A stretch of DNA of 64,000 nt from positions 124,001 through 188,000 of the forward strand of contig JUEB01000033.1 in assembly GCA_000802095.1 (NCBI GenBank), read 5' to 3'. This document shows positions 11,833 to 33,641 of this stretch, piece by piece. A model generated the notes under the pieces. It made no database searches. It was not told where the DNA came from and was given only the letters and a program-made list of their open reading frames with translations. The stretch comes from Peptococcaceae bacterium BICA1-7 (GTDB lineage Bacteria; Bacillota; Desulfotomaculia; Desulfotomaculales; Desulfocucumaceae). Every line of letters begins with the position of its first letter. Position 1 is the stretch's first letter. The position numbers and the translations under genes are program-made.

Positions 11833-12006
11833 TGGTGGAGGCGGCAAGCCCTGCGCTGCAATTTGGCTCCTCTGGCGGCTGCATCAATCTTCTTTAAAGA
11901 GCTATTTCGATAATTGTCCGCCAGCCCGGGTTACGGGGCCAACACGGGTGACGCAGGGCAGTATAAGAGCCGGCCCTGTTTTGCTATGGAATTATTGGCA
12001 AATCTA
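11833..12006 (-). repeat. tmRNA-derived repeat, copy D (degenerate, internal deletions)
   Basis: The plus-strand sequence begins TGGTGGAGGCGG, the reverse complement of the tmRNA 3' end. It then matches internal tmRNA parts (CGATAATTGTCCGCCAG, AGCCCGGGTTACGGGGCC) and ends with TTATTGGCAA, the tag region. Large internal segments are missing or altered. Its TTTGGCTCCTCTGGCGGCTGCA segment is shared with the copy at 23391 rather than with the intact gene. The remaining bases to 12115 hold a TATAAT at 12046-12051 that may serve carB. Confidence 0.7.
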
Positions 12007-12115
12007 TAAAAAGTAAGTAGGTATCTCTAACTTCATTTTTTTTGATATAATAAAGTGTTCAAATAAACATAAATCCAGCAAAGAAAAAAGAGCTGTGCAT
12101 AGGTAGGAGGACAAA

Positions 12116-15100
12116 ATGCCAAAACGAACCGACATCAATAAAATTCTCATTATTGGATCCGGCCCCATTGTAATTGGGCAGGCCTGTGAATTTGACTATT
12201 CTGGAACCCAGGCCTGTAAAGCCCTGCGGAAATTAGGTTACCAGATTGTTCTGGTCAATTCAAATCCAGCCACAATTATGACTGATCCGGGGATTGCTGA
12301 TGTAACTTACGTTGAACCTCTGAATTTAAAAAGTCTGACCAACATTATAGCTAAAGAAAGACCTGATGCGGTGCTGCCAAATCTAGGCGGCCAGTCGGCT
12401 CTAAATTTATGCTCTGAGCTGAACAAGGCCGGTGTTTTGGAAAAATACGCAGTTAAAGTAATTGGTGTGCAAATAGATGCCATTGAGCGTGGTGAAGACC
12501 GGATAGCCTTCAAGGAAACCATGAACCGGCTGAACATCGAAATGCCCCGCAGCAAACCGGCCTACAGTGTGGAGGAGGCAGAAGAAATCGCCCAGGAACT
12601 TGGTTACCCGGTGGTTATCCGCCCGGCGTACACCATGGGAGGCACCGGCGGCGGTCTGGCTTATAATGTGGAAGAGCTAAGAACTATAGTCAACAGGGGA
12701 ATTACCGCCAGTATGATTGGACAGGTCCTTGTAGAGGAATCAGTACTGGGTTGGGAAGAGCTGGAACTGGAAGTTGTGCGGGACTCCAAAAATCAAATGC
12801 TGACAGTGTGTTTCATTGAAAACATTGACGCCATGGGTGTGCATACCGGTGATTCCTTCTGTGTAGCCCCCATGCTGACGATCAGCCCGGAGCTTCAGCA
12901 GCGGTTGCAGAAATACTCCTATGCCATTGTAGAAGCAATAGAAGTAATTGGGGGCACCAATGTTCAGTTTGCCCATGACCCAAAATCAGGCCGGGTGGTG
13001 ATTATTGAAATAAACCCCCGTACATCCCGTTCGTCTGCATTGGCCTCAAAAGCCACCGGCTTCCCTATAGCTTTTATATCGGCATTGCTGGCAGCCGGCC
13101 TGACCCTTGACGAAATCCCTTACTGGCGGGATGGCAGCCTGGATAAATACACCCCGTCAGGTGATTATGTAGTGGTAAAGTTTGCCCGCTGGGCCTTTGA
13201 GAAGTTTCCCAATTCCCTGGACAAACTGGGCACACAGATGAGAGCCGTCGGTGAAGTCATGAGCATCGGTAAAAACTATAAAGAAGCCTTTCAAAAAGCA
13301 ATCCGCTCTCTGGAAATTAGCCGTTACGGGTTGGGCTTTGCCAAAGATTTTAACAGTCGCACGCTGGAAGAACTGCTGTCGTTAATGGCGGAGCCATCAA
13401 GTGAACGCCATTTTATAATGTATGAGGCATTACGCAAAGGTGCGGATATAGATGGTATTTACGAGCTGACCCATATCAAGAGATGGTTTATTCAGCAGAT
13501 GAAAGAGCTTGTTTTGCTGGAAGAACAGATTCTAGGGTATAAAAACAGCCGCCTGCCGGACCAGTTGCTGGCCCAGGCCAAAAAAGACGGTTTTGCCGAC
13601 CGTTACCTGGCAATGCTTTTAAATGTGCCGGAAACAGAAATCCGCCAGCGTAGGATAGCATTGGGGGTAGCTGAAGGATGGGAAGCTGTCCCGGTAAGCG
13701 GTGTGGAAAACGCGGCTTATTATTTCTCTACCTACAACGCCCCTGATCAGACTGTGTCAAGTGACCGGCAGAAAGTGATGATCCTGGGCGGAGGCCCCAA
13801 CCGGATCGGACAGGGAATCGAGTTTGACTACTGTTGCGTGCATGCGGCTTTTGCCCTGCGCGATATGGGCTTTGAGACCGTTATTGTCAACTGTAATCCC
13901 GAAACTGTTTCCACCGACTATGACACTTCTGATAAACTGTACTTTGAGCCATTGACAGTGGAAGATGTATTAAGCATATACGAGAAGGAGCAGCCCCTGG
14001 GGGTAATCGTTCAGTTCGGAGGTCAGACCCCCTTAAATATTGCCGCTGAACTGGCTAATGCCGGGGTGAAAATTTTCGGCACTTCTCCTGATACTATAGA
14101 TCTGGCCGAAGACCGTGACCGGTTCCGTCAGATCATGGAGAAGTTGGACATTCCCATGCCGGAGTCCGGTATGGCGGTGAATCTAGAAGAGGCCCTGGCC
14201 ATTGCCAACCGTATTGGTTATCCTTTGATGGTGCGGCCCTCATATGTTTTAGGCGGCCGTGGGATGGAAGTTGTATACGATGAGGAGATGCTTCGCCAGT
14301 ACCTGGATGCAGCCGTTGGGGTCACTCCGGAAAGACCTATTCTGATCGATAAATTCTTAAATAACGCAATAGAAGCAGAAGCTGACGCAATCGCCGATGG
14401 AACTGAGGCCTTCGTGCCGACGGTAATGGAGCATATTGAATTGGCAGGCATTCACTCTGGAGACTCAGCCTGTGTGATTCCGCCAATAAGTATTCCGGCC
14501 GGACACATAGATACTATTGTAGAGTATACCAGGAAGATAGCACAGGAGCTGAAGGTGGTGGGACTGATGAATATTCAGTACGCTATCGCCGATGACAGGG
14601 TTTATGTGCTGGAAGCCAATCCAAGAGCTTCACGGACCGTGCCCCTCGTGTCGAAAGTGTGTAATATCTCGATGGCCCGGATTGCCACGGAAATAATGCT
14701 GGCGGACAAAACTGCCAAAGAATCCCCGGTGAAAAAGCTGGTCTCCAAAAGAATTCCTCATTTTGGGGTAAAAGAGGCTGTCTTCCCCTTTAATATGTTC
14801 CAGGAAGTAGATCCCATACTGGGGCCGGAGATGCGCTCCACCGGGGAAGTGCTGGGAATTGCCGATTCCTTTGAATTAGCATATTACAAGGCTCAGGAAG
14901 CAATCCAGTCCCCCCTTCCCATATCCGGAACCGTTCTGATCAGTGTCACCGATCAGGATAAAAAAGCAGCGCTGGAAGCGGCCAAGGTATTTAGTAAGCT
15001 GGGCTTTAATATTAAAGCCACCGAAGGAACCAACAATTTCCTCAGGGAAAATGGAATTTTATCCGAAGAGATTAAAAAATTATATCAAGGCCGCCCCAAT

Positions 15101-15343
15101 ATAATAGATGGCATTAAAAATAAGGAGATTAACCTGGTTATCAATACCCCGTCCGGAAAACGCAGTCAGCATGATGACTCCTATATACGAAAGACTGCAA
15201 TCAAATACAAAGTGCCGTATATCACCACCATGGCCGCTGCTCTGGCCAGTGCAAGAGGAATCGCGGTATTTAAAGAAAACAATACTCAGGAAGCAACAAA
15301 ATCTTTGCAGGAATATCATTCGGATATCAGGGACACCATCTAG
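12116..15343 (+). CDS. carB: Carbamoyl-phosphate synthase large subunit, orphan copy
   Basis: The full-length 1075-residue CarB has two ATP-grasp synthetase halves ([17 protein letters not shown] at the N-terminus, [17 protein letters not shown] in the second half), an oligomerisation region between them, and an MGS-like allosteric domain at the C-terminus. It makes carbamoyl phosphate from bicarbonate, ammonia and ATP for pyrimidine and arginine synthesis. It needs CarA for glutamine use, yet no carA is adjacent. The second-half motif is of the proteobacterial style, while the other carB in this window (61274) reads [17 protein letters not shown], the usual Firmicute style. That suggests acquisition by transfer. 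Ribosome site GTAGGAGG. Confidence 0.92.
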   Translation: MPKRTDINKILIIGSGPIVIGQACEFDYSGTQACKALRKLGYQIVLVNSNPATIMTDPGIADVTYVEPLNLKSLTNIIAKERPDAVLPNLGGQSALNLCSELNKAGVLEKYAVKVIGVQIDAIERGEDRIAFKETMNRLNIEMPRSKPAYSVEEAEEIAQELGYPVVIRPAYTMGGTGGGLAYNVEELRTIVNRGITASMIGQVLVEESVLGWEELELEVVRDSKNQMLTVCFIENIDAMGVHTGDSFCVAPMLTISPELQQRLQKYSYAIVEAIEVIGGTNVQFAHDPKSGRVVIIEINPRTSRSSALASKATGFPIAFISALLAAGLTLDEIPYWRDGSLDKYTPSGDYVVVKFARWAFEKFPNSLDKLGTQMRAVGEVMSIGKNYKEAFQKAIRSLEISRYGLGFAKDFNSRTLEELLSLMAEPSSERHFIMYEALRKGADIDGIYELTHIKRWFIQQMKELVLLEEQILGYKNSRLPDQLLAQAKKDGFADRYLAMLLNVPETEIRQRRIALGVAEGWEAVPVSGVENAAYYFSTYNAPDQTVSSDRQKVMILGGGPNRIGQGIEFDYCCVHAAFALRDMGFETVIVNCNPETVSTDYDTSDKLYFEPLTVEDVLSIYEKEQPLGVIVQFGGQTPLNIAAELANAGVKIFGTSPDTIDLAEDRDRFRQIMEKLDIPMPESGMAVNLEEALAIANRIGYPLMVRPSYVLGGRGMEVVYDEEMLRQYLDAAVGVTPERPILIDKFLNNAIEAEADAIADGTEAFVPTVMEHIELAGIHSGDSACVIPPISIPAGHIDTIVEYTRKIAQELKVVGLMNIQYAIADDRVYVLEANPRASRTVPLVSKVCNISMARIATEIMLADKTAKESPVKKLVSKRIPHFGVKEAVFPFNMFQEVDPILGPEMRSTGEVLGIADSFELAYYKAQEAIQSPLPISGTVLISVTDQDKKAALEAAKVFSKLGFNIKATEGTNNFLRENGILSEEIKKLYQGRPNIIDGIKNKEINLVINTPSGKRSQHDDSYIRKTAIKYKVPYITTMAAALASARGIAVFKENNTQEATKSLQEYHSDIRDTI

Positions 15344-15369
15344 AAATTGGTCACACAGTAAGACGGGAA

Positions 15370-15408
15370 GGAGCACGTGATGTGAAAAATCAACGTGCTC
15401 CTTTTTTT
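15370..15408 (+). terminator. Intrinsic terminator after orphan carB
   Basis: GGAGCACGT (15370-15378) pairs with ACGTGCTCC (15393-15401) and is followed by seven T residues. A second small hairpin (GCCGCC/GGCGG) follows at about 15422-15436. Confidence 0.85.
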
Positions 15409-15681
15409 AAAAAAAGCAAAAGCCGCCGCCTGGCGGTTTTCTGTATTCCAATTATTACCTATATTCCATACGAGTTAAAGGAGGAAGACGAGGGACATCA
15501 ACACATTACCTGCCGTGCGTGCAGAAAGGTATATATTTATTATTATTTCGCAATTCTCATAGCAATTGTTCTGGTTACTATTCTAAAGGATATTCAATGG
15601 ATTCCTGTTCTTATATTGGCATTATTGGGGCTGGGACAGTATTTTGCCTTTTGGACCGAGAATCGTAAATTGCGGGATTAG
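15382..15681 (+). CDS. Small membrane protein with N-terminal CxxC, unknown function, start uncertain
   Basis: The frame encodes up to 99 residues. The convincing part is EDEGHQHITCRACRKVYIY, with a CxxC pair, then two hydrophobic helices and a charged tail (WTENRKLRD). GTG 15382 has a GGAAGGAG site, but it lies inside the carB terminator hairpin and the first 30 codons overlap a second hairpin. The real start may therefore lie nearer 15463 at a non-standard codon. No family is recognised. Confidence 0.5.
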   Translation: MKNQRAPFFKKSKSRRLAVFCIPIITYIPYELKEEDEGHQHITCRACRKVYIYYYFAILIAIVLVTILKDIQWIPVLILALLGLGQYFAFWTENRKLRD

Positions 15682-15727
15682 GTTGGATGAAATTAAAAAT
15701 TGCAATGTGCAATGTAGAGGTGACAAA

Positions 15728-16237
15728 ATGTCAGTATCATATTTATTGGTATTTTTATTAGCTGCCATTCCGTTAGTTGAACTAATTGCTGTGGTGCCAT
15801 TGGCAATAATTGGAGGGTTGTCACCAGTACCGGTGGCTATATTGGGATTCTTGGGAAATTTGCTGACAGTGATGCTGTTAATTGTTTTTGTTGATAGGGT
15901 AAAGAGATTGATGAAAACAAGAAGGCAGAAGCGTTTTGGTGTGGATGAACAAGCCGGGGAAGCCGAACAAGATACAAAAAAGGAAAAACGGGCAAGGGTT
16001 CTTTTTAATAAATATGGTTTGCCCGGATTAACTATTTTAGGTCCACTGCTTGTTGGTTCCCATATTTCAGCCTTTATGGCAATGAGCTTTGGCTCCAAAA
16101 GGCGCCTGGTGCTAAGCTGGATGCTTGTTAGCTTAGGATTATGGACAATTGTATCTGCTTTCGGGGCCAGTTATGGGGCAACTTTTTTTATTCCCAATGT
16201 TGAAGAAAACGGATTTCTTATTCAATTTTTTAAATAG
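15728..16237 (+). CDS. Small multi-drug export protein family (PF06695) membrane protein
   Basis: The 169-residue protein opens with YLLVFLLAAIPLVELIAVVPLAI and has a helix pair, a charged cytoplasmic loop (KTRRQKRFGVDEQAGEAEQ) and then YGLPGLTILGPLLVGSHISAF. That is the pattern of the Sm_multidrug_ex family. ATG 15728 follows GTAGAGGTGACAAA. Transport function is only a family-level label. It follows the CxxC membrane protein by 46 bases and may share its transcript. Confidence 0.7.
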   Translation: MSVSYLLVFLLAAIPLVELIAVVPLAIIGGLSPVPVAILGFLGNLLTVMLLIVFVDRVKRLMKTRRQKRFGVDEQAGEAEQDTKKEKRARVLFNKYGLPGLTILGPLLVGSHISAFMAMSFGSKRRLVLSWMLVSLGLWTIVSAFGASYGATFFIPNVEENGFLIQFFK

Positions 16238-16418
16238 CCGGTCCTCTCTGCAAAAGTGGACCTGGAGTCTTATAGTGCCGGGCTCTTGGAGATATTTGGC
16301 AGGGCAATACTAAAGGATGTGGAAAACAGCTCTACCCCTACATAACTTGAAAGTATCCTTTTTTTATAGCTGAAAGAGGAAATAATAATTCATATAATTC
16401 ATCTTGCTTAACTCATTG

Positions 16419-16440
16419 AAACCACCTTTGCGGTGGTTTT
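16419..16440. terminator. ACCACC-type hairpin terminator
   Basis: AAACCACC-TTTGC-GGTGGTTT followed by ATGCTTA. The same hairpin plus ATGCTTA spacer recurs at 23357, 34484, 38977 and 40364, in two of those cases right next to tmRNA-like or intron sequence. The rest of 16238-16527 shows no gene. Confidence 0.75.
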
Positions 16441-16527
16441 ATGCTTAACCCTACAGAATTGTGCGCCAAATGTCGGATAGATACTTTTAATTTCTGCTAT
16501 TCTATTGGTGAGGAGGAGGTCATATAA

Positions 16528-17400
16528 TTGGATTTTCTTAAAAAGATGAATGGAGCATTAAACTATATTGAAGGAAATCTTACTGAGGATATTGACTTTA
16601 AAGAAGTAGCGAGGCTTGCTTTTTGTTCCGAATATCATTTTAATAGAATGTTTTCTTTCCTGGCAGGTGTTACTCTGTCGGAGTACATCCGCCGCAGACG
16701 CTTAACTCTTGCAGCGTTTGAGCTTAATAATAGCAGCATAAGGATAATTGATGTTGCTATTAAATATGGATACAGCTCACCAGACTCTTTTACAAGAGCT
16801 TTTCAAAGTTTGCATGGTGTAACACCTTCGGAAGCCAGAAATAATGGTCAATTACTAAAGGCTTTTCCAAAAATGACTTTTCAATTATCAATTAAGGGGG
16901 GAATAGAAATGAACTATCGAATTGTAGAAAAAGAGGCATTTCGCATAGTGGGTATAAAGAAAAGAGTTCCTATAATTTTTCACGGAGTTAATCCGGAGAT
17001 TGCATCTATGTGGAAAACTTTAAATGATGAGGCTATAGATAAACTTAAAAAACTTTCTAATGTCGAGCCTTTGGGGCTGCTTAGCGCCTCCGCCAACTTT
17101 TCCGAGGGGCGGATGGAGGAAAAAGGAGAGCTTGATCATTATATAGGCGTGGCAACAACAAAAGAGTGTCCGGAAACCCTGACTCAACTTGGAGTGCCTG
17201 CCTCAACATGGGCTGTATTTGAATCATCCGGACCCTTTCCTGAAACCCTGCAGGATGTCTGGGGGCGCATCTATTCCGAATGGTTTCCATCCTCAAACTA
17301 TGAACAGTCAGTAGGGCCGGAAATATTGTGGAATGAAAATAAAGATATAGCTTCCCCAACATTTAAAAGCCAAATATGGATACCGGTTTTGAAAAGGTAA
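16528..17400 (+). CDS. AraC-family regulator with GyrI-like effector domain
   Basis: The 290-residue protein has an N-terminal AraC DNA-binding domain with two helix-turn-helices ([20 protein letters not shown] and [20 protein letters not shown], then HGVTPSEAR). A C-terminal GyrI-like/effector-binding domain (about residues 130-290) starts [20 protein letters not shown]. Such regulators (Rob/YdeE/BltR-like fold) bind hydrophobic compounds. TTG 16528 is used because GAGGAGGAGGT lies nine bases upstream and no ATG fits. Its target is not evident from the neighbours. Confidence 0.85.
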
Positions 17401-17430
17401 TAGCTTGGCGGCCACAGTAATGCAAGGGGA

Positions 17431-18564
17431 TTATTGCTCAGAGAAGTCCTCCTTATTTATATTATGTTGTTCCCTGTAACGGGTAGGTGTGACACCCACG
17501 TTTCTTTTAAAGGCGTTATAGAAGGCTGAAGATGAATTAAAACCGACATCAAATGCCACCGCCAGTATTTTGCGCTCCGGCTGTTCAATTAATATTTGCC
17601 TGGCTTCATTTATCCTGTATTCGTTAATCAGCTTATAAAAATTTGAATTTAATTTGCAGTTTATAATTTCGGAGAGCTGATGGGTTGTGATGGATAAATC
17701 ATGGGCAAGGCTATTAAGACTCATTTTTTCGTTTCTGTATAGTTTATCCTCCTCCAAGAGCTTTTTAAGCCTATTTACTATTAAACCAGCATCCAGATTC
17801 TCTATCTGGGATCGCTCATATCGCGCCTTTTCAGCTTCCTGCTTTATAATAAGAAGGTATTCCGGGTACATATTACTTAACAGATAAATAGATATTAATA
17901 CCATGGTTACCGAAAGATAAATTATCTGGGGAAATCCCAGCGAAAGTATGCGGTCAGTAAACCAAGCAATAATTAGCATAATAAGAAAACCAATGCCATA
18001 TAAAGCCATTTTAATTAGTCTTTTTCTATGTGTCTGAACTTCCTTTAATAAATCAAGAATATTCACAGTTAATAGAATAAGATATGCCATAAACAAAAGC
18101 ATTGATGAATACATTACAGAAGATATGATTATTTCATGGGACTCAAAACCATTATTATTTGTTAAATTCATGACACTGTAGAGCTCAACTTTTTTATAGG
18201 CGTATGGGGCTAACAGTGCTATTGATGTCAACGGAAGGACCAAATGCAATAAGTGTATGGGTTTAAACTGGAATTCATTGTAAATAAAGCATTTAAAATA
18301 AAAATATAGAAGTGGTACGGAAAGATAAAAGGAAGGTATACTAATCAAAAATAAGTTGAAATCAAAGAACTGGTTTATCCCCATGAATGTAAGCCCGCCC
18401 AGGGTTTGCCAGACTCCCAGCAGAAAAAAAGCTGCTGCCAGAATGTAATTATGTAAATTCCTGCTTCTAAGGAAAAGTTGTCCCAACGACAAAACCCACG
18501 CAAAACCTCCCCCGAAGAGTATAAAAAAATAAAATGCAGATATTAACAGCTGACTTCTAGTCAT
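17431..18564 (-). CDS. Membrane-bound AraC-family transcription regulator
   Basis: The 377-residue protein has seven predicted hydrophobic helices in its first ~240 residues. A linker and a C-terminal AraC HTH follow (MSLNSLAHDLSITTHQLSEI, ILAVAFDVGFNSSSAFYNAF and VGVTPTRYREQ). This is the layout of 7TM sensor-AraC regulators, which detect an outer signal and bind DNA while at the membrane. The gene converges on the AraC-GyrI gene, and the 30-base gap contains a 15-base match to tmRNA (CTTGGCGGCCACAGT, about 17404). Confidence 0.8.
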   Translation of the reverse strand: MTRSQLLISAFYFFILFGGGFAWVLSLGQLFLRSRNLHNYILAAAFFLLGVWQTLGGLTFMGINQFFDFNLFLISIPSFYLSVPLLYFYFKCFIYNEFQFKPIHLLHLVLPLTSIALLAPYAYKKVELYSVMNLTNNNGFESHEIIISSVMYSSMLLFMAYLILLTVNILDLLKEVQTHRKRLIKMALYGIGFLIMLIIAWFTDRILSLGFPQIIYLSVTMVLISIYLLSNMYPEYLLIIKQEAEKARYERSQIENLDAGLIVNRLKKLLEEDKLYRNEKMSLNSLAHDLSITTHQLSEIINCKLNSNFYKLINEYRINEARQILIEQPERKILAVAFDVGFNSSSAFYNAFKRNVGVTPTRYREQHNINKEDFSEQ

Positions 18565-18809
18565 GGGTCGAAGCCTCTTATCTATGCTTAAATTGATTGG
18601 CCTGAAATTTTCCTGCAGCAGCCAATATGATTAAGTATAAACCTAACTGTCCTCCTGAAACAACAGTAAGGTAGCGGTTTATTTATTGCTGCTAGTTTAT
18701 AAAAAATATAGCACGCTCATAAAATGCATGCTACAAATAGGGGACTACATGTACTTTTTAGGCGGCTTGATTTTAAAAAGGCAGTGATGCTAACTGATTA
18801 TAAGTTTTT

Positions 18810-19826: not shown

Positions 19827-19912
19827 TATTGTTCCCCCCTTTGTTTTTTGTTAGGAGCTTGTTAATACCTCCGCAATAATATATCCCGGATAGAGCTTCC
19901 AGTCTTCCTTTT

Positions 19913-23390: not shown

Positions 23391-23537
23391 TGGTGAAGGC
23401 AGGGCATCTTGATCTAACGTTCGAAAGAACGACCACAGGTGTGTCTCGATCGCAGGCTGCTGTTTAAATTTGGCTCCTTTGGCGGCTGCAGCCGGCCTCC
23501 TCTGGGGCTATCTCATAATATTCCCGCCTGCCTCCGG
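23391..23537 (-). repeat. tmRNA-derived repeat, copy C (3' half)
   Basis: It begins TGGTGAAGGCAGGGCATCTT, then TTCGAAAGAACGACCACAGG, GTGTCTCGATCGCAGGCTGC and TTGGCGGCTGCAGCCGGCCT, aligning along the 3' half of the intact tmRNA at 40930. The T-arm is replaced by GGGCATCTTGATCT. The same replacement appears in copies at 29050 and 33288. The stretch from here to 23723 shows no gene I can support. Confidence 0.75.
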
Positions 23538-26243: not shown

Positions 26244-26270
26244 CAAATTTTTTGAAATGGTGGGACTTCC

Positions 26271-26948
26271 ATGAGCCCGAAAGTACTGATCATTGAGGAT
26301 GAAGAAAAGATTGCCCGGTTTATAGAACTGGAGCTTGGCTATGAAGGATATACCACGACAAAGGCCTTTGATGGCAGAACAGGTCTCGAACTGGCAGAGA
26401 CAGGCCAGTTCGACCTTGTTTTGCTGGATGTTATGCTGCCTCAGCTGAGCGGCATGGAAGTTCTGCGTAGAATTCGCCGAACCACCTCCGTTCCCATCAT
26501 CATGCTTACGGCACGAGACAGCGTGATGGATAAGGTTTCCGGACTTGACAGCGGAGCGAGCGATTATATTACCAAGCCTTTTGCCATAGAGGAACTTCTC
26601 GCACGTATCCGCAATGCCCTCCGGAAAACAATGCCTGAAGACGCGGGGGTACTGTCCGCCTCTGGTCTTCTGCTGGATGCGGGCCGCCGTACTGTTACCA
26701 TGCTGGGTAAGCCCATTGATCTGACAAAACGTGAATTTGACCTGCTTCATTTTCTGTTAAAGAATAAGGGAATGGTAATTTCCCGGGAAACACTGCTGGA
26801 GAATGTATGGGGCTTTGATTTTTCGGGGGAAACCAACGCTGTGGATGTTTACGTGCGTTTTCTCCGTGGAAAAATTGACGAGGTGTTCAATATTAAATTC
26901 ATCCACACAGTCAGGGGAGTAGGATATGTGATTAAAGATGAAAAGTGA
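26271..26948 (+). CDS. OmpR-family response regulator
   Basis: The 225-residue protein has a receiver domain with the acidic pair IEDEE, phosphoacceptor Asp53 in LVLLDVMLP and Lys in DYITKPF. A winged-helix OmpR output domain follows (LTKREFDLLHFLLKNKGMVI, VYVRFLRGKIDEVF, VRGVGYVI). The last four codons overlap the kinase start. With the UBA-DUF4342 gene and the kinase it forms a three-gene operon; the target genes are not visible here. Confidence 0.92.
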   Translation: MSPKVLIIEDEEKIARFIELELGYEGYTTTKAFDGRTGLELAETGQFDLVLLDVMLPQLSGMEVLRRIRRTTSVPIIMLTARDSVMDKVSGLDSGASDYITKPFAIEELLARIRNALRKTMPEDAGVLSASGLLLDAGRRTVTMLGKPIDLTKREFDLLHFLLKNKGMVISRETLLENVWGFDFSGETNAVDVYVRFLRGKIDEVFNIKFIHTVRGVGYVIKDEK

Positions 26949-28431
26949 GACAGCAAACAGTCCTCCCAGCCGTGTTAGCAATGGAAAACAGTTTTCTATC
27001 GCATGGAAGCTCAATGTAAAAGTATTTTTTGGTTTACTGAGGCTTTTTTTGATCCTTAACATAGTTCTATGCCTGGTGTCTGCTGCAGGGCTAATTGTAC
27101 GCGCGGAGCAGACCGTGTCGGCGGCGGCCGAAATGCTAAATCAAACGGGGCTGCCTACCCCGGATTCGGAAGATTGGCTTGTGCTCACCGGATACAGTAT
27201 TGCTCTGCAAACGGGAGAAGCGAAAGGATTCCAAATTCCCAAAATCCTTCAGCCCCATCTTTCAAAACAGATTGCGTCAGGTGTCAGGAGTATTGAACTG
27301 ACAGATTCGGAAAACTTGACCGCCTGGGGACTATTACAGGATGTTACCTACAATGTGACAGTTGAAGCCGGTAATCAATCTTATCGTATTTCCTACCGCC
27401 CTCAAAAGACCCTTCAGATATTTGCAGGTATGTTTGCCATAGTTTTTCTTCTAGAGCTTATCATGCTGTTCCGCAGCATTTTCACAAGCGCAAGAATGAT
27501 CCGGAAAACCCTCCGGCCCATTCAAGAATTGGCAGAAGCAGCGCAAAACCTCAGTACCGAAAGCATCTTTGAACCGGAACAACTAAGAGTTCTGGCAGGC
27601 AAGCTAGATAACATCAATGCCACAAGACTGGATACAAGAATTTCAGTGGGCGAAACCCAAAGCGAACTGAAGAGCCTCGCATCAGCCATTAATGGGATGT
27701 TGGATCGAATCAACCAATCCTACCGTTCCCAGGTGCGCTTTGTATCTGATGCGTCCCATGAACTAAGGACACCAATTTCCGTTATTCAAGGGTATGCAAA
27801 TCTGCTGGATCGCTGGGGGAAAAAGGATGAAAAGACGTTGCAGGAATCCATTGATGCCATAAAAGATGAAACAGCGAATATGAAGGGTTTGGTGGAACAG
27901 CTTTTGTTTCTGGCACGGGGCGACAATAACACCATGACTCTATTGGTAGAGCATTTTGAACTGTCCGCTCTTGCCGAGGAAGTGCTGCGGGAAACGCAGA
28001 TGATCGACGACGGGCACCAATACGTTTCGTTTGTTACCCCCGTTTTCATTAAAGCTGATAAAAGCCTTGTCAAACAGGCAGCGCGGATTCTGATAGACAA
28101 TGCTATGAAATACACACCACCGGGCAAAAAGATTACCATTTCTGTTTCCGGTGCAGATGGCTATGCCCGCCTGACCGTACAGGATGAAGGCATTGGCATT
28201 GCGCCCGAGGCGGTTCCCAATATTTTTGAGCGTTTCTTCCGCACCGACGAGTCCCGCGCAAAAGCCACTGGCGGCGCGGGGTTGGGTTTATCCATTGCAA
28301 AGTGGATTACCGAGCGGCATGGCGGGTACATTGAAGTATTAAGCAGACTTGAGATAGGCACCAGAATTTCTATTTATTTCCCAACAGCGCCTGAGAATCA
28401 TACACAAATCGCTGGAAAGTTTTCAGATTAA
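26938..28431 (+). CDS. Sensor histidine kinase, partner of the OmpR-type regulator
   Basis: The 497-residue membrane kinase has TM1 near residues 30-55, an extracytoplasmic domain of about 105 residues, TM2 at ~160-178 and a HAMP-like linker. The HisKA box FVSDASHELRTPISVIQGY has phosphoacceptor His274. The HATPase_c domain has ILIDNAMKYTPPG, VQDEGIGIAPEAV, FERFFRTDESR and GGAGLGLSIAKWI. It overlaps the regulator gene by 11 bases. The signal is unknown. Confidence 0.92.
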   Translation: MKSETANSPPSRVSNGKQFSIAWKLNVKVFFGLLRLFLILNIVLCLVSAAGLIVRAEQTVSAAAEMLNQTGLPTPDSEDWLVLTGYSIALQTGEAKGFQIPKILQPHLSKQIASGVRSIELTDSENLTAWGLLQDVTYNVTVEAGNQSYRISYRPQKTLQIFAGMFAIVFLLELIMLFRSIFTSARMIRKTLRPIQELAEAAQNLSTESIFEPEQLRVLAGKLDNINATRLDTRISVGETQSELKSLASAINGMLDRINQSYRSQVRFVSDASHELRTPISVIQGYANLLDRWGKKDEKTLQESIDAIKDETANMKGLVEQLLFLARGDNNTMTLLVEHFELSALAEEVLRETQMIDDGHQYVSFVTPVFIKADKSLVKQAARILIDNAMKYTPPGKKITISVSGADGYARLTVQDEGIGIAPEAVPNIFERFFRTDESRAKATGGAGLGLSIAKWITERHGGYIEVLSRLEIGTRISIYFPTAPENHTQIAGKFSD

Positions 28432-28445
28432 GGTCTCGCTACTAA

Positions 28446-28512
28446 TGTTTGTCCCGCCAGCCCTCCGGGTATTAATCTGAAAGCAAGGCCGTTTAGGTGA
28501 CGCCTTAGCCTA
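28446..28512 (-). repeat. tmRNA-derived repeat, copy F (central fragment)
   Basis: TGTTTGTCCCGCCAGCCCTC, AATCTGAAAGCAAGGCCGTT and TTAGGTGACGCCTTAGCC align to the middle of tmRNA (TTGTCCCGCCAGACCTCC, TGGCCTGAAAGCTAGCCCGT) in the same direction as the intact gene. Both ends are missing. Confidence 0.6.
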
Positions 28513-28520
28513 CCGTAATA

Positions 28521-28682
28521 TTAAGGTTGCTTTCTTCCAAGATATTTAGAGAGATACACCGCACCTGCCACTGAGGTATTGACAGGCTCGCTGAATGTAA
28601 CCACTATGTTGCCGCTTATGGAAATGCCTGTGCCGCCGGGAGTTACGCCGGTTACGGTTGTCCCGTCGATATCATAATCCGG
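28521..28682 (-). pseudogene. Bacterial Ig-like (Big_5/SbsA-type) domain fragment
   Basis: About 53 codons on the minus strand read as an Ig-like surface-protein domain: TVTGVTPGGTGISISGNIVV, then TFSEPVNTSVAGAVYLS, closing at TAA (28521-28523). There is no start codon or ribosome site. It is the leftover of a larger adhesin or surface protein in a stretch of broken sequence. Confidence 0.5.
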
Positions 28683-28693
28683 CCGGTGCTAAG

Positions 28694-28730
28694 ATACGTC
28701 CCTGAATTGGATAAGGGGGCGTATTTTTAA
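28694..28730 (+). terminator. Possible intrinsic terminator
   Basis: ATACGTCCC (28694-28702) pairs, with one wobble, with GGGGCGTAT ending at 28724, followed by a T-rich run. It lies upstream of a small gene and may end read-through transcription from the two-component operon. Confidence 0.5.
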
Positions 28731-28788
28731 TTTTATGGGGATAATATTCCTGTAGTTAGTAAAAATGAAAAATTGGAGGTGATACCTT

Positions 28789-28956
28789 TTGTCAGACCGT
28801 GGCACAAGCAATAGCCCTAATACAAGAAACCCTGAACGTCCGCCTGGAAAACCTTCCAGATTGGACCAATTTGCGGATGATATTTTTGAGGGGAGCGAAA
28901 GGGCCCAGGAAAAGCTAGGTGTAACATCCAGGCAGGAGAAAAAAACCTTTAAATAA
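28789..28956 (+). CDS. 55-residue hydrophilic protein, unknown
   Basis: A TTG at 28789 lies eight bases after GGAGGT. The frame encodes a polar, Pro/Arg/Lys-rich N-terminal half (SPNTRNPERPPGKPSR) and an acidic middle (LDQFADDIFEGSERAQEKLG), ending at TAA 28954-28956, and is followed by a terminator. The good ribosome site and composition suggest a real small gene. No family is recognised and no membrane segment is seen. Confidence 0.5.
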   Translation: MSDRGTSNSPNTRNPERPPGKPSRLDQFADDIFEGSERAQEKLGVTSRQEKKTFK

Positions 28957-29004
28957 TGATTAAGTTATAGAAGACGTACCTTACCCACTTATAACCAGAC
29001 AGGC

Positions 29005-29035
29005 AAAAAAGCGAGTTGTCAAACACTCGCTTTTT
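29005..29035. terminator. Hairpin terminator before tmRNA-like copy B
   Basis: AAAAAGCGAGT, loop TGTCAAAC, ACTCGCTTTTT forms a symmetric terminator usable in both directions. The tmRNA-like copy B starts 15 bases to the right. Confidence 0.85.
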
Positions 29036-29049
29036 CCCATTTTATGTAT

Positions 29050-29171
29050 TGGTGTAGGCGGGGGCATCTTAATCTGCATCCGAAAGAACACCACAGGAGT
29101 GCTACGTGCGCGCCCTTGGCGGCCACAGTTAGCCTACTTGGAAATATCTCTATAATTGTCCCGCCAGACCT
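29050..29171 (-). repeat. tmRNA-derived repeat, copy B (3' third)
   Basis: TGGTGTAGGCGGGGGCATCT, TCCGAAAGAACACCACAGGA, CGCGCCCTTGGCGGCCACAG and ATAATTGTCCCGCCAGACCT follow the intact tmRNA closely, with a deletion after GGAGTG. The T-arm is again replaced by GGGCATCTTAATCT, as in the copies at 23391 and 33288. Confidence 0.78.
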
Positions 29172-29257
29172 TTATACTAGTTAACTATTCTTGATTAAAA
29201 AATTATGTGAGTAGCATATATAGGCTATTAATTTGGGGTAATATAGAAAAAATATTT

Positions 29258-29881
29258 ATGGAGCAACCTATACTTATGGATTATCTATACCTCGCTGCGG
29301 AACTTTTTGTTGGGTTTTTTTCATTATTTATTGTAGTGAAATTAGTGGGCAAGACACAGCTTAGCCAGATAACTCCGTTTGATTTTATATCAGCTTTAGT
29401 GTTGGGTGAATTGCTGGGAAATGCAGTATATGATGAAGAAACCGGTTTAGTTTTTATCCTTTACGCGTTGGCCCTTTGGGCCATGCTACATGTTGCCTTT
29501 GAATATGTTGGCCAAAAATTTATAAAGGCAAGGAGTTTTACACTTGGTAATCCCTCTATAGTTATTCGAAATGGAAAGATAGACCGACAGCAGTTAAAAC
29601 AGAATAAAATAAACATAAACCAGCTTCAAACACTACTCCGGCAAAAAGATGTCTTTTCAGTACGAGAAGTGGAATTTGCAATTCTAGAGCCAAACGGGAC
29701 AATATCAGTTCTTAAAAAATCCCTCTATCAAACAACGGAGCTTAAAGATCTAAATATAAAAGCCAAGGATGTATATCTACCCTTTACAATTATAAGTGAT
29801 GGCACAGTATTATGGGATAATATCAAAGAATGCGGGTTTGACAAAAACTGGCTGGATTTACAGTTTCCAACAATGGTATAA
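29258..29881 (+). CDS. DUF421 membrane protein, copy 3
   Basis: The ~207-residue DUF421 protein has N-terminal helices (YLYLAAELFVGFFSLFIVVK, FDFISALVLGELLGNAV) and the conserved cytoplasmic part (GNPSIVIRNGKIDRQQLKQN, ININQLQTLLRQKDVFSVRE, EFAILEPNGTISVLKK). The start is uncertain: ATG 29258 is chosen, with 29207 and 29276 also possible, and none has a strong ribosome site. It stands apart from the DUF421 pair at 23.7-25.2 kb, separated by the two-component operon and repeat remnants. Confidence 0.78.
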   Translation: MEQPILMDYLYLAAELFVGFFSLFIVVKLVGKTQLSQITPFDFISALVLGELLGNAVYDEETGLVFILYALALWAMLHVAFEYVGQKFIKARSFTLGNPSIVIRNGKIDRQQLKQNKININQLQTLLRQKDVFSVREVEFAILEPNGTISVLKKSLYQTTELKDLNIKAKDVYLPFTIISDGTVLWDNIKECGFDKNWLDLQFPTMV

Positions 29882-29885
29882 AAAG

Positions 29886-30003
29886 CCCCAGGGAAGTATA
29901 TTACGCCGAGTGGCTGGAAGGAGACGGCATGTATATTGTGACATTCAATGAGTTTAACTACCCTTCTTCTCCACTGGCAAAGATAGGAGATGTATTCAAG
30001 TAA
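29886..30003 (+). pseudogene. C-terminal fragment of an unknown protein
   Basis: A 39-codon open stretch reads SPREVYYAEWLEGDGMYIV and FNEFNYPSSPLAKIGDVFK and ends at TAA 30001-30003. It has no start and directly abuts the DUF421 stop. It looks like the tail of a lost gene. The remaining bases to 30125 show nothing. Confidence 0.35.
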
Positions 30004-30125
30004 GGGTTGCCCTATGAAATACTATTTTGGAAAGGGGAATTAATACTTTTTTATTGGGTACCACGTTTTTAACAGAGCAGTATATTAAGGGATAAACCGA
30101 AAATCCCTGGAGCCTTCGGCTATAG

Positions 30126-31046
30126 TCACGCTTTTAGCTTGGTGACAAGCCCTTCACTATCACGAAGCACCAGTTTTTTTTCTATTAATTCCTTCATTAC
30201 GTCTTCGTAAACAGACCTGTACTGTTTTTTGAAATAAAAATCAACAGTTTCCAAATACCAGAACGTGCTCATTATATATTCGAATAAACCCTCATAGGTG
30301 TATCCGGGTTTCATTAACAAGGTGTAAAGAAGTATTTTTTTCAACAGGTCGCGACCTATACGTTCCGGTTGTTCCAAAAAGTATTCCAAACGCTTTTGGC
30401 ATTGATAAATGGCTTTTCTGGCGGTATAAATTATACTCCCGTGGCCGGGGTAAATGGTGGAGATATCCAATTTGGCTAACTTTTCTAAAGATTTCTGTTG
30501 TAAAAAGGGGGATATACTGCCTTCGACCCTAATGTTTAAAACTCCAAAATCCCCATTCCATACTGTGTCAGAGGAGATTAAGAAACGGTGTTCTGGGGAG
30601 TATAGAGAAATCATTCCAGAAGCATGGCCGGGAGTGTGAATCAAAATCAGCTCCAGTTTGTCCAGCAATATTACTTCTCCGTCCTCAAGGCTGCGGCTGA
30701 CAGGGAAGAAATCTGCTTCCTGGACAAAATAGCGCCACCAGGTGTTCCAGTCGTTTTTTTTCTCTATATTATAGCGGTCAATGGAGTGCATTGCTATTGC
30801 ACAGCCTGACAGGTCGTAGATGGCTTTATTGCCGCCAATGTGGTCACAGTGAGCGTGGGTGGAGATTATTAATTCCACTTTTTCAGGCTCAAGCCCGGTC
30901 TGCCTGATCAGGTAAAAAGTATCGTCAAGATGCTTTTTGTACCCAGTATCGATTAGCACTTTGTTATTGCCGTTGAAAACAAAGTGGTTAGCATTCAGCC
31001 AGCCGCGCTCAACAAAATAAAAGTGATCTACTATATTTTGAATCAC
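30126..31046 (-). CDS. Metallo-beta-lactamase-fold hydrolase
   Basis: The 306-residue protein has the metal motif STHAHCDHIGG (HxHxDH), a later ILIHTPGHASGMISLYSPE and STIYPGHGSIIY with further His ligands, and SSDTVW with the bridging Asp. A ~90-residue C-terminal extension with a winged-helix look follows, typical of glyoxalase-II/LACTB2-like hydrolases. The substrate is unknown. It stands alone with TraB downstream on the same strand. Confidence 0.85.
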   Translation of the reverse strand: MIQNIVDHFYFVERGWLNANHFVFNGNNKVLIDTGYKKHLDDTFYLIRQTGLEPEKVELIISTHAHCDHIGGNKAIYDLSGCAIAMHSIDRYNIEKKNDWNTWWRYFVQEADFFPVSRSLEDGEVILLDKLELILIHTPGHASGMISLYSPEHRFLISSDTVWNGDFGVLNIRVEGSISPFLQQKSLEKLAKLDISTIYPGHGSIIYTARKAIYQCQKRLEYFLEQPERIGRDLLKKILLYTLLMKPGYTYEGLFEYIMSTFWYLETVDFYFKKQYRSVYEDVMKELIEKKLVLRDSEGLVTKLKA

Positions 31047-31159
31047 CTGCTATCCCCCCTCTTAGCCACCGCTAAACGCTGAGGGTTTTTCCTCTAAACT
31101 TCAAATCAATGTTAGCATAATTATTCATCTGTTTCTATATTAAAACTGGCTCTAAGAAA

Positions 31160-32332
31160 CTACAAATTTTCTATAAATAAACGGATCACATCGGCTCCAC
31201 CAATCAATGTTCCTACTGAGCCTCCCACATTGGCTAAAGTAACGATTAGGAGAATTCTTGTTACCTTGTTATTCCAAAAACCCTTAAGGCTGAAAATATC
31301 CTCAGCAAGATTTTCAAAGTCTCTTACACTGGGCCGGCGAATATAGGCCTGAGTAAGACCGGCAAACCACCCAGCCGCAATTAAGGGATGTAAAGTGGTT
31401 ATTGGAGCGACAACAAAGGCGGTCAAAATGGAAAACGGATGCCCAAAAGCAAGCGCAGTTCCTAAAGCTGCTAAACATCCAGTCCACAGCACCCAACTCA
31501 AGGTTTGCTGAGCTCCCGCAGAAGGATTGGCAATAAAGGTATAAACAATAAGGACAATAATAAGGGCTGGTACTGACCAACCAATTATTTTTGTGGTTTT
31601 GGACTTAGCCGGAACCCTGGTTAAGACTCCTAAATCATGTTCTTTTTTTATTTCTTCTTTAATGCCGGGAACGTGTGCAGCTCCAAGGACAGCAACTACC
31701 TTTTGCCCTGGAGCCTCTTTAATTTTCTGGGCCAAATATTGATCCCGCTCATCAATTAAGGGAATCTTTAACTTAGGAAAGCTTTTAGTAAAATCATTGA
31801 GTATAGAGTTTAGCATATCTTGAGACTTTAATTCTTCAAGTTCCTCTTCGGTAATGCTCTCATCAGCAAAAATACTAAGGATAATCTCCATCATAAGCTT
31901 GATTTTTCCCCAAAAACCTACACTATGCCAGATACGAGAAAAGGTTATTTGAATATTTCTGTCAGCCAGTACTAAGTTTGCACCTATCTCTTTTGCTGAA
32001 TCAATTCCCTGAATCATTTCCTGTCCGGCATTAATTCCAAATTGTTTGGCTATACGTTTTTGGAAAGATGAAAATACCAGATTTGCTAAAAGCAAAGTGG
32101 CTTTCTTTTCTTTAATTATTTTAAAGATATCAGTATCCTGCCATTTGTTTCCTTCCACTATCGTTTGATATCTTTGTTCATCCAATTCTATACAAACAGA
32201 GTCGGGTCTTTCTAATTCAATAACTTCCTTCACTTGCTCCGCGCTATGCTTTGATACATGGGCAGTCGCAATCAATATGAACTCTTTACCAGCTTGATTT
32301 AATCTCGTAATATTTTGGGTATCTCCGGGCAT
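31160..32332 (-). CDS. TraB/PrgY family membrane protein
   Basis: The 390-residue protein opens EFILIATAHVSKHSAEQVKE with ELERPDSVCIELDEQRYQTI, the TraB/GumN-type putative metalloprotease fold. ANLVFSSFQKRIAKQFGINAGQ and KVVAVLGAAHVPGI follow, and three to four membrane helices fill the C-terminal third. In Enterococcus TraB limits pheromone activity, and more generally these are thought to be membrane proteases or chaperones. The ATG is at 32332. The function here is not given by the neighbours. Confidence 0.85.
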   Translation of the reverse strand: MPGDTQNITRLNQAGKEFILIATAHVSKHSAEQVKEVIELERPDSVCIELDEQRYQTIVEGNKWQDTDIFKIIKEKKATLLLANLVFSSFQKRIAKQFGINAGQEMIQGIDSAKEIGANLVLADRNIQITFSRIWHSVGFWGKIKLMMEIILSIFADESITEEELEELKSQDMLNSILNDFTKSFPKLKIPLIDERDQYLAQKIKEAPGQKVVAVLGAAHVPGIKEEIKKEHDLGVLTRVPAKSKTTKIIGWSVPALIIVLIVYTFIANPSAGAQQTLSWVLWTGCLAALGTALAFGHPFSILTAFVVAPITTLHPLIAAGWFAGLTQAYIRRPSVRDFENLAEDIFSLKGFWNNKVTRILLIVTLANVGGSVGTLIGGADVIRLFIENL

Positions 32333-32461
32333 AAATTACCTTCCTTTATATTTTAATCTCCTTATTATAATTGATCTTTCGTTACCGGTCACCTAAGTTG
32401 TTAAGTTATTTCATATATAAAGAAAAAAACTGCCCTTAGGCGTTTTCGTCTATACTGTTAT

Positions 32462-32541
32462 TGGTGGAGGCGGAATTAAGGGAGCGACAGCGCAGCGCTG
32501 TCGCTCCAATTATAGGTATTCCACCGTATTGCGGGCTGGTT
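32462..32541 (-). repeat. tmRNA-derived repeat, copy E (both ends kept, centre replaced by palindrome)
   Basis: TGGTGGAGGCGG matches the tmRNA 3' end. TCCACCGTATTGCGGGCTGG matches the 5' domain and is closest to the variant at 33288 (CCACCGTATTGCGGGCTG). Between them the whole centre is replaced by a perfect 13-bp inverted repeat with one centre base (32481-32507, GGAGCGACAGCGC and its complement). Confidence 0.65.
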
Positions 32542-32584
32542 AACAGTATTATACATCTTACCTCACCTATGAGTACAGAGGATC

Positions 32585-32761
32585 TCAAGTGCGCCCACCA
32601 GTAAATCTATCAGGACACCTTATATTCGTACTTAAGGTTTTTGCGGGCGGAATCGTAATAGCTAATGTAAGCGTTGTATTGACTGTAACATTGATCGGGC
32701 CGGCTCCGGCAGGGGTCGCAGCAGCTGATGGCGGAGTTGTGTCTATCTGGTATTTATCCAT
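32585..32761 (-). pseudogene. Short surface-protein (Ig-like) remnant
   Basis: A 58-residue frame from ATG 32761 reads YQIDTTPPSAAATPAGAGPI and NVTVNTTLTLAIT, resembling the junction before a bacterial Ig-like domain, and then loses similarity. No good ribosome site is seen. It is probably a fragment like the one at 28521, and possibly once part of the same kind of gene. Confidence 0.4.
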
Positions 32762-32790
32762 ACTAGCAGCTCACCTTTAGTCTAAACTTG

Positions 32791-33140
32791 TTATAAGCAT
32801 TTTCTCACATATTCAATTGGGTGCATGGTGCGGTTAGCTGTTTCTTCAACAGATAACCCCTGTTTCAAAAAGCGCTTAATAACGATTTCCATGCTTTCTC
32901 CAACCTCAATTATATGCATATCCGGGTCGTAAAATCGGATGACACGTTGACCCCATTCATATTCTTTTACATCATATTTAATTTCAGAGCTGTTTTTAAG
33001 ATGTTTTACAAAGCTATTCTAAATCCTCTTCTTCAAAATACAGTTCAAAATTATGTGACCCTTGAACCATATTATTTTTGTTGAAGACAACTAATTCTGC
33101 AAAATTTGCCTGCAGCGCTGAATTCACAAAATATCTATAG
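32791..33140 (-). pseudogene. VOC (glyoxalase-like) family pseudogene, truncated and frameshifted
   Basis: Minus-strand reading gives SALQANFAELVVFNKNNMVQ, SHNFELYFEEEDLE, a one-base frameshift near 33017, then FVKHLKNSSEIKYDVKEYEW, QRVIRFYDPDMHIIEVGESM and GLSVEETANRTMHPIEYVRK, ending TAA 32791-32793. This is the C-terminal three quarters of a vicinal-oxygen-chelate/glyoxalase-like protein. The N-terminus and start are missing. It is dead by two independent lesions. Confidence 0.65.
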
Positions 33141-33239
33141 ACAGATCAATTACTGTTTCCGCAATAGCAGGGATAATAGTACGCAGGCAGGATGGTGCCT
33201 GGCCCTTAACTTATTAACTTATTTGGGAGAATATAGCAA

Positions 33240-33262
33240 AAGCCGCCTATTTCAGGCGGCTT
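33240..33262. terminator. Hairpin next to full-length tmRNA pseudogene
   Basis: AAGCCGCCT (33240-33248), loop ATTTC, AGGCGGCTT (33254-33262). It lies 26 bases beyond the 3' side of the tmRNA-like copy A, the position a tmRNA terminator would have. Confidence 0.65.
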
Positions 33263-33287
33263 GGCTATTCTTAATAGTATTGATATT

Positions 33288-33641
33288 TGGTGGAGGCGGG
33301 GGCATCTTAATTCAGCGTCTGAAAGAACGACCACAGGAGTGTCTCCGAGCGCAGACTATGATTTAAATTTCACGCCCTTGGCGGCCACAGTCAGCCTCCT
33401 TGGGAACTATCTCGATAATTGTCCCGCCAGACCTCCGAGAATTGGCCTGAAAGCTGGCCCGTTTAAGTTATCCCCTAGCCCGGGCCACGGGCCCAACACA
33501 GGTAGGGGGTGAGTTGCTAATTAAGCAGTGTAAGCGTATTCGTTGTTGGCAATTATAAGTTTCCACCGTATTGCGGGCTGATGGAACCCCGGCTCGCTAC
33601 TCCTGCCATCTTTTCCACTGTCTGGTCATTCACGACCCGCA
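33288..33641 (-). pseudogene. Full-length tmRNA (ssrA) pseudogene, copy A
   Basis: Over about 300 bases this is nearly identical to the intact ssrA at 40930-41282, including pseudoknot regions and TACTCCTGCCATCTTTTCC of the 5' domain. Both tRNA-like ends are damaged. The T-arm GTTCAA is lost (GGGCATCTTAATTCAG on the plus strand), and the GGGGGCGTAATGG 5' end has become a degenerate GCGGGTCGTGAATG. The tag frame reads GGA AAC TTA TAA, so a stop precedes the tag, although ANNEYAYTA is still visible after it. It cannot be charged as tmRNA or encode a full tag. Confidence 0.85.

Follow-up and report, generated by a model that had tools for sequence, protein, structure and literature searches.

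The tmRNA gene, ssrA, is reportedly a hot spot for genomic islands in enterobacteria, where, in the account that Williams is said to have given in 2003 under the title 'Traffic at the tmRNA gene', the elements bring their own terminators, attachment sites suffer damage and the displaced pieces are short. To our knowledge, no near full-length ssrA body with both ends altered belongs to these enterobacterial islands. The ssrA-GIs of Dehalococcoides, as presented in the relevant passages of their description, form tandem inserts behind ssrA, which are marked by 20-bp repeats of the ssrA 3' end; their integrase is the serine recombinase DsiB, and an integration module is said to be present in 16 of 31 (PMC3146451). 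The outline of Islander indicates that an integrase is required in each island and that internal fragments are discarded (PMC4383910). The tmRNA Website update notes tmRNA pseudogenes and fragments, and its corresponding sections give no account of copies altered at both tRNA-like ends or common to genera (PMC4131195). On the whole, near full-length ssrA copies with both ends altered are undescribed in the literature consulted, mainly abstracts and passages (including PMC3146451, PMC11915505, PMC4131195 and PMC4383910).

The 64-kb stretch of DNA analysed here (the window, on contig C33) most likely represents the same known habit of genomic islands, namely displaced ssrA ends behind an intact ssrA, with copies that are unusually long, damaged and common to two related bacteria. 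The intact target gene at one end of the region is the live ssrA (40930-41282, minus strand), identified by ARAGORN and by Rfam RF00023 (201.7 bits), with the tag ANNEYAYAA. A blastn search of the window with this gene, its own position being masked, recovered ssrA-derived sequence at six places (E 5e-118 to 1.6e-4), all six on the minus strand and downstream of the live gene, with the ssrA 3' end kept, or nearly so, at five; beyond these, nothing was found on either strand at E 0.01. The weakest of the six places scores 36.8 bits, whereas 300 dinucleotide-shuffled queries gave at most 32.6 bits, none reaching 36 bits. The original prediction of six tmRNA-derived places oriented like the live gene, five of them with the tmRNA 3' end, is thereby upheld, and likeness at chance level, which it had named as a possible refutation, was not observed. 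Its proposed check with the tmRNA model of Rfam gave a divided outcome: the copy at 33288 passes the cut-off (92.9 bits), whereas the fragments fall below it, though blastn finds them, and are absent from the output of a permissive Rfam scan of 11700-33250. In the whole genome there are 11 further Rfam tmRNA matches, all below the cut-off and each coinciding with a tRNA gene.

Nearest to the live gene among the six places is a near full-length copy at 33288-33640 (minus strand), of which 33288-33622 correspond to tmRNA 18-353 (blastn E 5e-118). The fragment at 32462-32541 (minus; E 1.6e-4) joins tmRNA 60-122 to the 3' end CCGCCTCCACCA through an inserted palindrome, the blastn part spanning 32474-32538 and the 3' end at 32462 being recognized by eye. 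Two 3' fragments have similarly altered T-arms: that at 29050-29171 (minus; tmRNA 207-353 with an internal deletion, blastn E 1e-18) contains GATTAAGATGCCCCCGCC and precedes a hairpin belonging to a second sequence family, and that at 23391-23536 (minus; tmRNA 204-353, blastn E 4e-25) has a CCACCGC-family terminator behind it. A decayed 3' fragment at 11833-11949 (minus) retains tmRNA about 138-169 and 208-275 (E 0.06 and 3e-6), the latter at 11860-11927, followed by GCCGCCTCCACCA, with the 3' end CCGCCTCCACCA at 11833 again recognized by eye. The predicted copy at 28446 is indeed ssrA-derived, but the match (28449-28510, minus; tmRNA 161-222, blastn E about 2e-10) is purely internal and has no 3' end. 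An uncertain, possibly outermost scar at 5569-5613 (minus) weakly resembles sequence of genome G002 that comprises an ssrA 3' end and its terminator (80% over 46 bp, E 5.6e-4). Decay is uneven with respect to distance; the nearest copy is best kept, identities then run 73, 73, 81, 77 and 74%, and an even gradient can be set aside. With the 33288 copy as query, all but one of the matches at E <1e-4 in the whole genome lie at or behind ssrA on one strand, the sole unlinked one being an internal piece (C17:81655-81761). Internal fragments, namely 28449-28510, this piece and another in G003 (C21:145023), are not expected from integration alone and, like the uneven decay, speak against scars.

Directly behind the live gene are its terminator (40903-40924, minus; a 9-pair stem with a T run) and a hicB-like antitoxin gene (40647-40868, minus; Pfam HicB_lk_antitox, E 1e-7), a stretch that shows 84% identity over 251 bp to G003 (locus L061); the next reading frame, which is hicA-like, seems frameshifted by eye. 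Next comes a possible, very short remnant of an ssrA 3' end (AAACTCCCCCAACCACCA; 40394-40411, minus), which was recognized by eye and is weak alone (nhmmer E 98). It is followed at 40365-40383 by a terminator of the CCACCGC family (family member at 40356-40394, minus). Beside a terminator of this family is also a group II intron (39093-40251, plus; Rfam RF02001 and RF01998), which is broken and contains 280 aa of a reverse transcriptase as a fragment (Pfam RVT_1). Other members of this terminator family stand without recognizable ssrA sequence, at 38971-39008 (minus; 87% to 34457-34518, E 1.7e-6 in the whole genome), at 34457-34518 (minus; 82.5% to the stretch behind the G002 ssrA copy) and at 16419-16445 (minus; E 5.9e-6 in the whole genome). 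Across the genome the family occurs five times behind ssrA, always on the minus strand, the next match elsewhere having an E-value of 0.011. The short 3' end at 40394-40411 and four CCACCGC-family terminators are further possible scars that had been missed earlier.

Strong hairpins are seen behind the live gene and the 33288, 29050 and 23391 copies (-15.6 to -21.4 kcal/mol over 60 bases); those behind 32462 and 11833 are weak (-11.2 and -9.9 kcal/mol). The hairpin sequences behind the kept ends differ from one another, and hence tmRNA and terminator were not copied as a single unit, contrary to what had been suggested.

Given the above observations, the region behind ssrA is very probably a stack of old, decayed integration scars from successive integrations at ssrA. 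In each round, a mobile element would have recombined with the 3' part of ssrA, whereby the live gene would keep its own 5' part and receive its last bases and terminator from the newcomer, and the previous 3' end, together with its own terminator, would be displaced to the far side of the insert. Repeated rounds would produce a row of ssrA ends, all downstream and co-oriented, which would then decay. The copies, their restriction to one strand and to the downstream side, their kept 3' ends, the differing terminators, the variable gene content, one perfect repeat of 177 bp and the tyrosine integrases in two relatives (see below) can be read directly from the genomes, and favor successive integration over the other model offered in the original prediction. 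The arrangement resembles the Dehalococcoides ssrA-GIs, in the passages that describe them, in its tandem inserts, 3'-end repeats and members without an integration module, and the short motif that there takes the place of ssrA immediately upstream of the repeat is comparable to the altered T-arm found here; unlike their 20-bp repeats, the pieces here measure about 100 to 336 nt, and in place of their serine recombinase the linked integrases of the relatives are tyrosine enzymes, with none in the window (PMC3146451). The tDNA/tmRNA islands outlined in Islander likewise share the intact target, the co-oriented displaced 3' fragment, tandem arrays and 'damaged' fragments, although the window's scars would fail its integrase filter, and at least one piece its internal-fragment filter (PMC4383910).

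The genome's 19 matches to PF00589 (phage integrases) and 11 to PF00239 (resolvases) all lie on contigs other than C33. Thus, the window holds scars of ssrA-targeted islands rather than complete islands, and the agent in this genome can only be inferred; tyrosine integrases of the kind found in G030 and G006 would have acted here. In G030, tmRNA 173-349 is repeated (177/177) about 4.7 kb downstream of ssrA, the likeness stopping at CCACCA; 54 bp behind this repeat starts a gene for a tyrosine recombinase (PF00589, E 4e-29). In G006, an integrase 67% identical to that of G030 begins about 110 bp behind a 96-bp ssrA 3' piece, another ssrA piece, of 30 bases (28/30), follows after about 21.6 kb, and an 18.4-kb contig has ssrA 3' pieces at both ends. 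The search for integrase genes suggested earlier was hence negative on the window's contig and positive in these two relatives. The G030 integrase as query detected nothing at E <= 1 in the window, L061 or L148, and its homologues in G013, G033 and G054 (45-53% identity) are far from ssrA, indicating that association with this gene is not a property of the whole family. A phage or plasmid source was rejected, as the live ssrA has no match among plasmids and the 33288 copy a single weak one among phage records (64 query bases, in an unannotated record). In IMG/VR, the 16-base altered 3' sequence of that copy had three exact hits, which by eye lie in unrelated coding-like sequence and were discarded; neither a 25-base tmRNA piece nor a relative of the G030 integrase was found there.

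A blastn survey of 113 genomes of the order with ssrA, in which up to six candidates per genome were scored and counts are therefore lower bounds, yielded two or more matches in at least 20 genomes. Three of these (G023, G033 and G040) have one gene split in two, and at least 17 of the 113 have extra ssrA matches, among them G007, whose extra is a second intact gene, and G072, which rests on a 31-base match. Full-length ssrA and extras share one contig in seven genomes (G000, G003, G030, G054, G068, G084 and G085), in all of which the pieces near ssrA are downstream and on the same strand, bar one inverted half in G003; an exception in G030 is one 31-base match far away. The locus of G003 reads live ssrA, a hicB module, a displaced ssrA 3' end, a hicBA module and a degenerate 3' end (by eye), the first module being the one behind the window's ssrA and the second the one directly behind ssrA in G002 (358/372). 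On the smpB side, G002 and G007 preserve the gene order. Behind ssrA, the loci of 17 relatives were compared, only nine of which hold more than 5 kb there; none has the order of genes seen in the window past the hicB module or joins ssrA to the window's far flank as an empty site would, and isolated weak matches involve S-layer, reverse transcriptase, histidine kinase and copper amine oxidase N domain sequences. A scan for short displaced 3' ends in 14 stretches of the relatives and the window was clear only at the known copies and at L061:11077-11102; elsewhere forward scores exceeded the best reverse score by at most 5.

An unlikely alternative to integrase action is that circles carrying a piece of ssrA entered by homologous recombination of the Campbell type, the piece setting the 5' limit of each copy. 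The variation of these limits (about 24 in G000, G003 and G002, 104 in L071 and 173 in G030), the long and perfect repeat of G030 and the absence of a surviving integrase from the window are consistent with such entry, but the integrase genes that immediately follow ssrA 3' ends in G030 and G006, the shortness of the distant ssrA piece in G006, and an altered T-arm beside an exact 3' end in two genera, which points to a fixed crossover place, argue against it.

The long copies bear further on how successive integrations at ssrA might have proceeded. The body of the 33288 copy (tmRNA 25-328) is identical to the live ssrA at 288 of 304 positions (94.7%), whereas its ends agree at only 14/25 (positions 1-24) and 19/25 (329-353). 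Its tag frame is open (ANNEYAYTA, by eye) and most consensus pairs are kept in the Rfam alignment, but it does not form the tRNA-like domain of a functional tmRNA, the T-arm being rewritten and ARAGORN giving no call. A second genus has the altered 3' end too, the last 25 bases being identical (25/25) in the G003 copy at 17974 despite differing bodies, and the 5' end is partly common to the two; the exact 16-base altered 3' sequence is present in only 2 of the 113 genomes. The G003 counterpart consists of two oppositely oriented pieces, and its body matches the window's live ssrA (285/304) better than G003's own (260/304). Derivation of this copy from G003's own gene is not firmly rejected by the tree (AU p 0.121; 0.036 for both copies), and identity, with weak tree support, tentatively favors another lineage as the source of the G003 copies.

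As an altered tRNA-like 3' end is common to two genera, the long copies may not have arisen simply by local displacement of parts of the gene of each host; moreover, because such a T-arm would disable a displaced gene, they require the assumption of an ssrA body borne by the element. The altered 5' end and T-arm would then be the element's own attachment arm, and one element lineage would have carried the captured ssrA body between genera. A fuller version, to which we assign a low probability, is that a mobile element of this bacterial family carries a captured tmRNA body with its tRNA-like ends replaced by fixed sequence (ending ATTAAGATGCCCCCGCCTCCACCA), moves between genera and exchanges sequence with the live gene, the body serving as a long, tmRNA-sparing attachment arm or as an RNA interfering with trans-translation. 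It is quite improbable that the long copies are a maintained RNA gene, a tmRNA body with no functioning tRNA-like domain that travels with an element and might, for instance, be a decoy for SmpB or ribosomes: the well-kept body between altered ends, the retained consensus pairs and the ends held in common with G003 would suit such a role, but the G003 copy is split and partly inverted, the remaining copies are truncated, a promoter for the 33288 copy is not established and the altered 3' sequence is confined to two genomes.

Amplification of a tmRNA-derived element by reverse transcription, for instance by the reverse transcriptase of the nearby group II intron, had been offered as the other model and is very improbable. 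The 5'-truncated copies with a common 3' end and the intron fragment at 39.1-40.25 kb would agree with it, yet retroposition should reach unlinked sites on both strands, and the genome-wide matches to the 33288 copy at E <1e-4 are instead clustered at or behind ssrA in one orientation, bar one; the 3' ends are followed by hairpins that differ, and 20 scanned reading frames contained no reverse transcriptase other than the intron fragment. Chance likeness or misassembly has a negligible probability, for although the matches at two of the six places are short (E 3e-6 and 1.6e-4), the shuffled queries and the bias in strand and side oppose the former, and a contig of at least 480 kb with similar copies in separately assembled relatives makes the latter, also named earlier as a possible refutation, unlikely.

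Viewed as a stack of integration scars, the region marks ssrA as a site of recurrent integration in this order of anaerobic Firmicutes, extra matches being present in at least 17 of 113 genomes, and it draws attention to a lineage of tyrosine integrases located next to this gene. It also serves as a warning that tmRNA searches will return nearly complete copies in which the tRNA-like domain does not work. Should the altered copies travel with elements, mobile DNA may have made a mosaic of the live tmRNA gene itself, and this, if true, would bear on the use of ssrA as a marker and on how elements spare an important gene.

Behind smpB, the minus strand carries the intact ssrA (tmRNA) gene at 40930-41282. 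A search of the window with this gene as the query, the gene itself being masked, recovers six further places with E-values from 5e-118 to 1.6e-4, namely 33288, 32462, 29050, 28449-28510, 23391 and 11833. All six share the live gene's strand and lie downstream of it; no other match reaching E 0.01 was found on either strand of the rest of the window, and none of 300 dinucleotide-shuffled queries gave a match of 36 bits or more. The masked search and shuffled control bear out the place, the number and the direction originally claimed for the tmRNA-like copies. Five of them retain the ssrA 3' end or a sequence close to it, again as proposed; the match at 28449-28510 is an internal piece. Hairpins lie behind the kept ends, as originally noted for several of them; those at the live gene, 33288, 29050 and 23391 are strong, those at 32462 and 11833 are weak, and the hairpin sequences differ. 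By eye, a palindrome (GGAGCGACAGCGCTGCGCTGTCGCTCC) at 32480-32510 replaces the missing part of the 32462 fragment.

Behind ssrA there are five members of a terminator family of the form CCACCGC...GGTGG, all of them on the minus strand; the rest of the genome has hardly any (next match E 0.011). One occurrence follows the 23391 copy and one a doubtful ssrA remnant at 40394-40411, while three are without recognisable ssrA sequence. A terminator of this family has beside it a broken group II intron (39093-40251) that contains a fragment of a reverse transcriptase. An exact 28-base repeat lies before the intron (38884-38911) and again within the end of the intron's reading frame (40169-40196). A short dispersed repeat (AAGTTAATAAGTTAAGGGCCAGGCACC), perhaps a REP-type element, is seen near several scars (window 33193-33225; locus L061 of a relative at ~11680 and ~18230; locus L153 1138-1220). 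The genes between the copies (20 reading frames scanned, plus hicB) are ordinary and include, beside hicB, an S-layer protein, a tyrosinase-like protein, TraB and metallo-beta-lactamase family members, DUF421 proteins, a two-component system, proline racemase and others.

The copy at 33288 is almost complete: its body (tmRNA 25-328) is identical to the live gene at 288 of 304 positions and retains most of the base pairs in the Rfam consensus. Its ends are less similar (14/25 for the first 24 positions, 19/25 for the last 25) because the acceptor/D-arm portion and the T-arm have been rewritten. A similarly altered T-arm is found in fragments 29050 and 23391, and the exact altered 16-base sequence occurs in two of 113 genomes. 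The closest named relative by SmpB (81%), Peptococcaceae bacterium BRH_c4b (locus L061; G003 by its contig coordinates), bears the same altered T-arm on two copies; the last 25 bases of its copy at 17974 are identical to those of the 33288 copy, although the bodies differ in about a quarter of positions. The long G003 copy, now two oppositely oriented pieces, has a 5' end partly like that of the window copy, and its body matches the window's live gene at 285/304 positions versus 260/304 for G003's own; a tree test does not settle its origin (AU p 0.121; 0.036 for both copies). Long copies with an ordinary T-arm in G002 and in a Thermincola MAG (L071) indicate that long displaced pieces also arise without T-arm change. 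We infer that one element lineage, bearing a captured ssrA body beside its attachment site, visited the genera of both the window and G003. In Dehalococcoides islands a similar motif, though a shorter one, lies upstream of the ssrA repeat (PMC3146451).

Across the order, 102 of 113 genomes have an ssrA match at E <= 0.001. At least 20 give more than one match; in three of these a single gene is split in two, and therefore at least 17 carry extra matches. Both counts are lower bounds, since no more than six candidates were scored in each genome, and the 17 include G072, which rests on 31 bases, and G007 (3% contamination), possibly a mixed bin, whose two intact genes (L149 7413-7767 and L150 1231-1580) lie on separate contigs, each beside smpB. 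Seven genomes hold a full-length gene and extras on one contig, with pieces near ssrA downstream and co-oriented; the exceptions are a distant 31-base match in G030 and, in G003, one half that is inverted. Three genomes of one family have a partial copy ~0.3-0.65 kb behind live ssrA (L160 1953-2066 in G085, L161 1846-1971 in G084, L035 1080-1166 in G054), starting near tmRNA 224-242, that of G054 being without the 3' end. Elsewhere in the genome of the window, an internal fragment (L152 6656-6761, contig C17) lies ~310 bp behind a gene (L152 7073-9841) for a pyruvate phosphate dikinase/PEP-utilising enzyme. This gene shares 89% DNA identity over 2.7 kb with one in the Thermincola ssrA neighbourhood (L071 15028-17696), where a 33-base ssrA piece at 14609 lies ~430 bp ahead of the gene.

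Integrases adjoin ssrA pieces in two relatives. G030, which belongs to another family, has a 177/177 repeat of tmRNA 173-349 ~4.7 kb downstream; the likeness stops at CCACCA, and 54 bp behind the repeat a gene for a tyrosine recombinase begins. A recombinase 67% identical to it, with one in-frame stop, starts ~110 bp behind a 96-bp ssrA 3' piece in G006, which also has a 30-base piece (28/30) ~21.6 kb further on and an 18.4-kb contig with ssrA 3' pieces at both ends. G013, G033 and G054 encode homologues with 45-53% identity, at a great distance from ssrA. In G003 the live ssrA is followed by a hicB module, a displaced ssrA 3' end, a hicBA module and, by eye, a degenerate 3' end. The first module is the one following the window's ssrA (84% over 251 bp), and the second is the one directly after ssrA in G002 (358/372 identical). 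The smpB-side gene order is conserved in G002 and G007. Beyond the hicB module, the window's gene order behind ssrA is found in none of 17 relatives' loci, of which only nine hold more than 5 kb there; isolated weak protein matches do occur. This stepwise stack and the differing gene order are what repeated integration at the ssrA 3' end would leave.

Against successive integration stand the lack of an integrase in the window, and of any integrase or resolvase on its contig (0/19 and 0/11 of the genome's matches), the uneven decay with distance from ssrA, and the internal pieces at 28449-28510, at C17:81655-81761 of the window's genome and at C21:145023 of G003. The main rival, in which circles that bore ssrA pieces integrated by homologous recombination, would account for a similar pattern. 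Of the two models in the original prediction, successive integration at ssrA fits better, whereas reverse-transcribed amplification, judged by position, strand and hairpins, fits poorly.

Williams 2003 is reportedly among the sources for ssrA integration, tandem islands and displaced fragments. These phenomena are well known (PMC3146451, PMC4383910, PMC4131195). By the features that define ssrA islands, the window's copies have the orientation and position but lack the integrase, and are therefore scars, not complete islands. The literature searched yielded no description of long ssrA copies with altered tRNA-like ends, and it is these copies that make the window a variant of the known ssrA islands.
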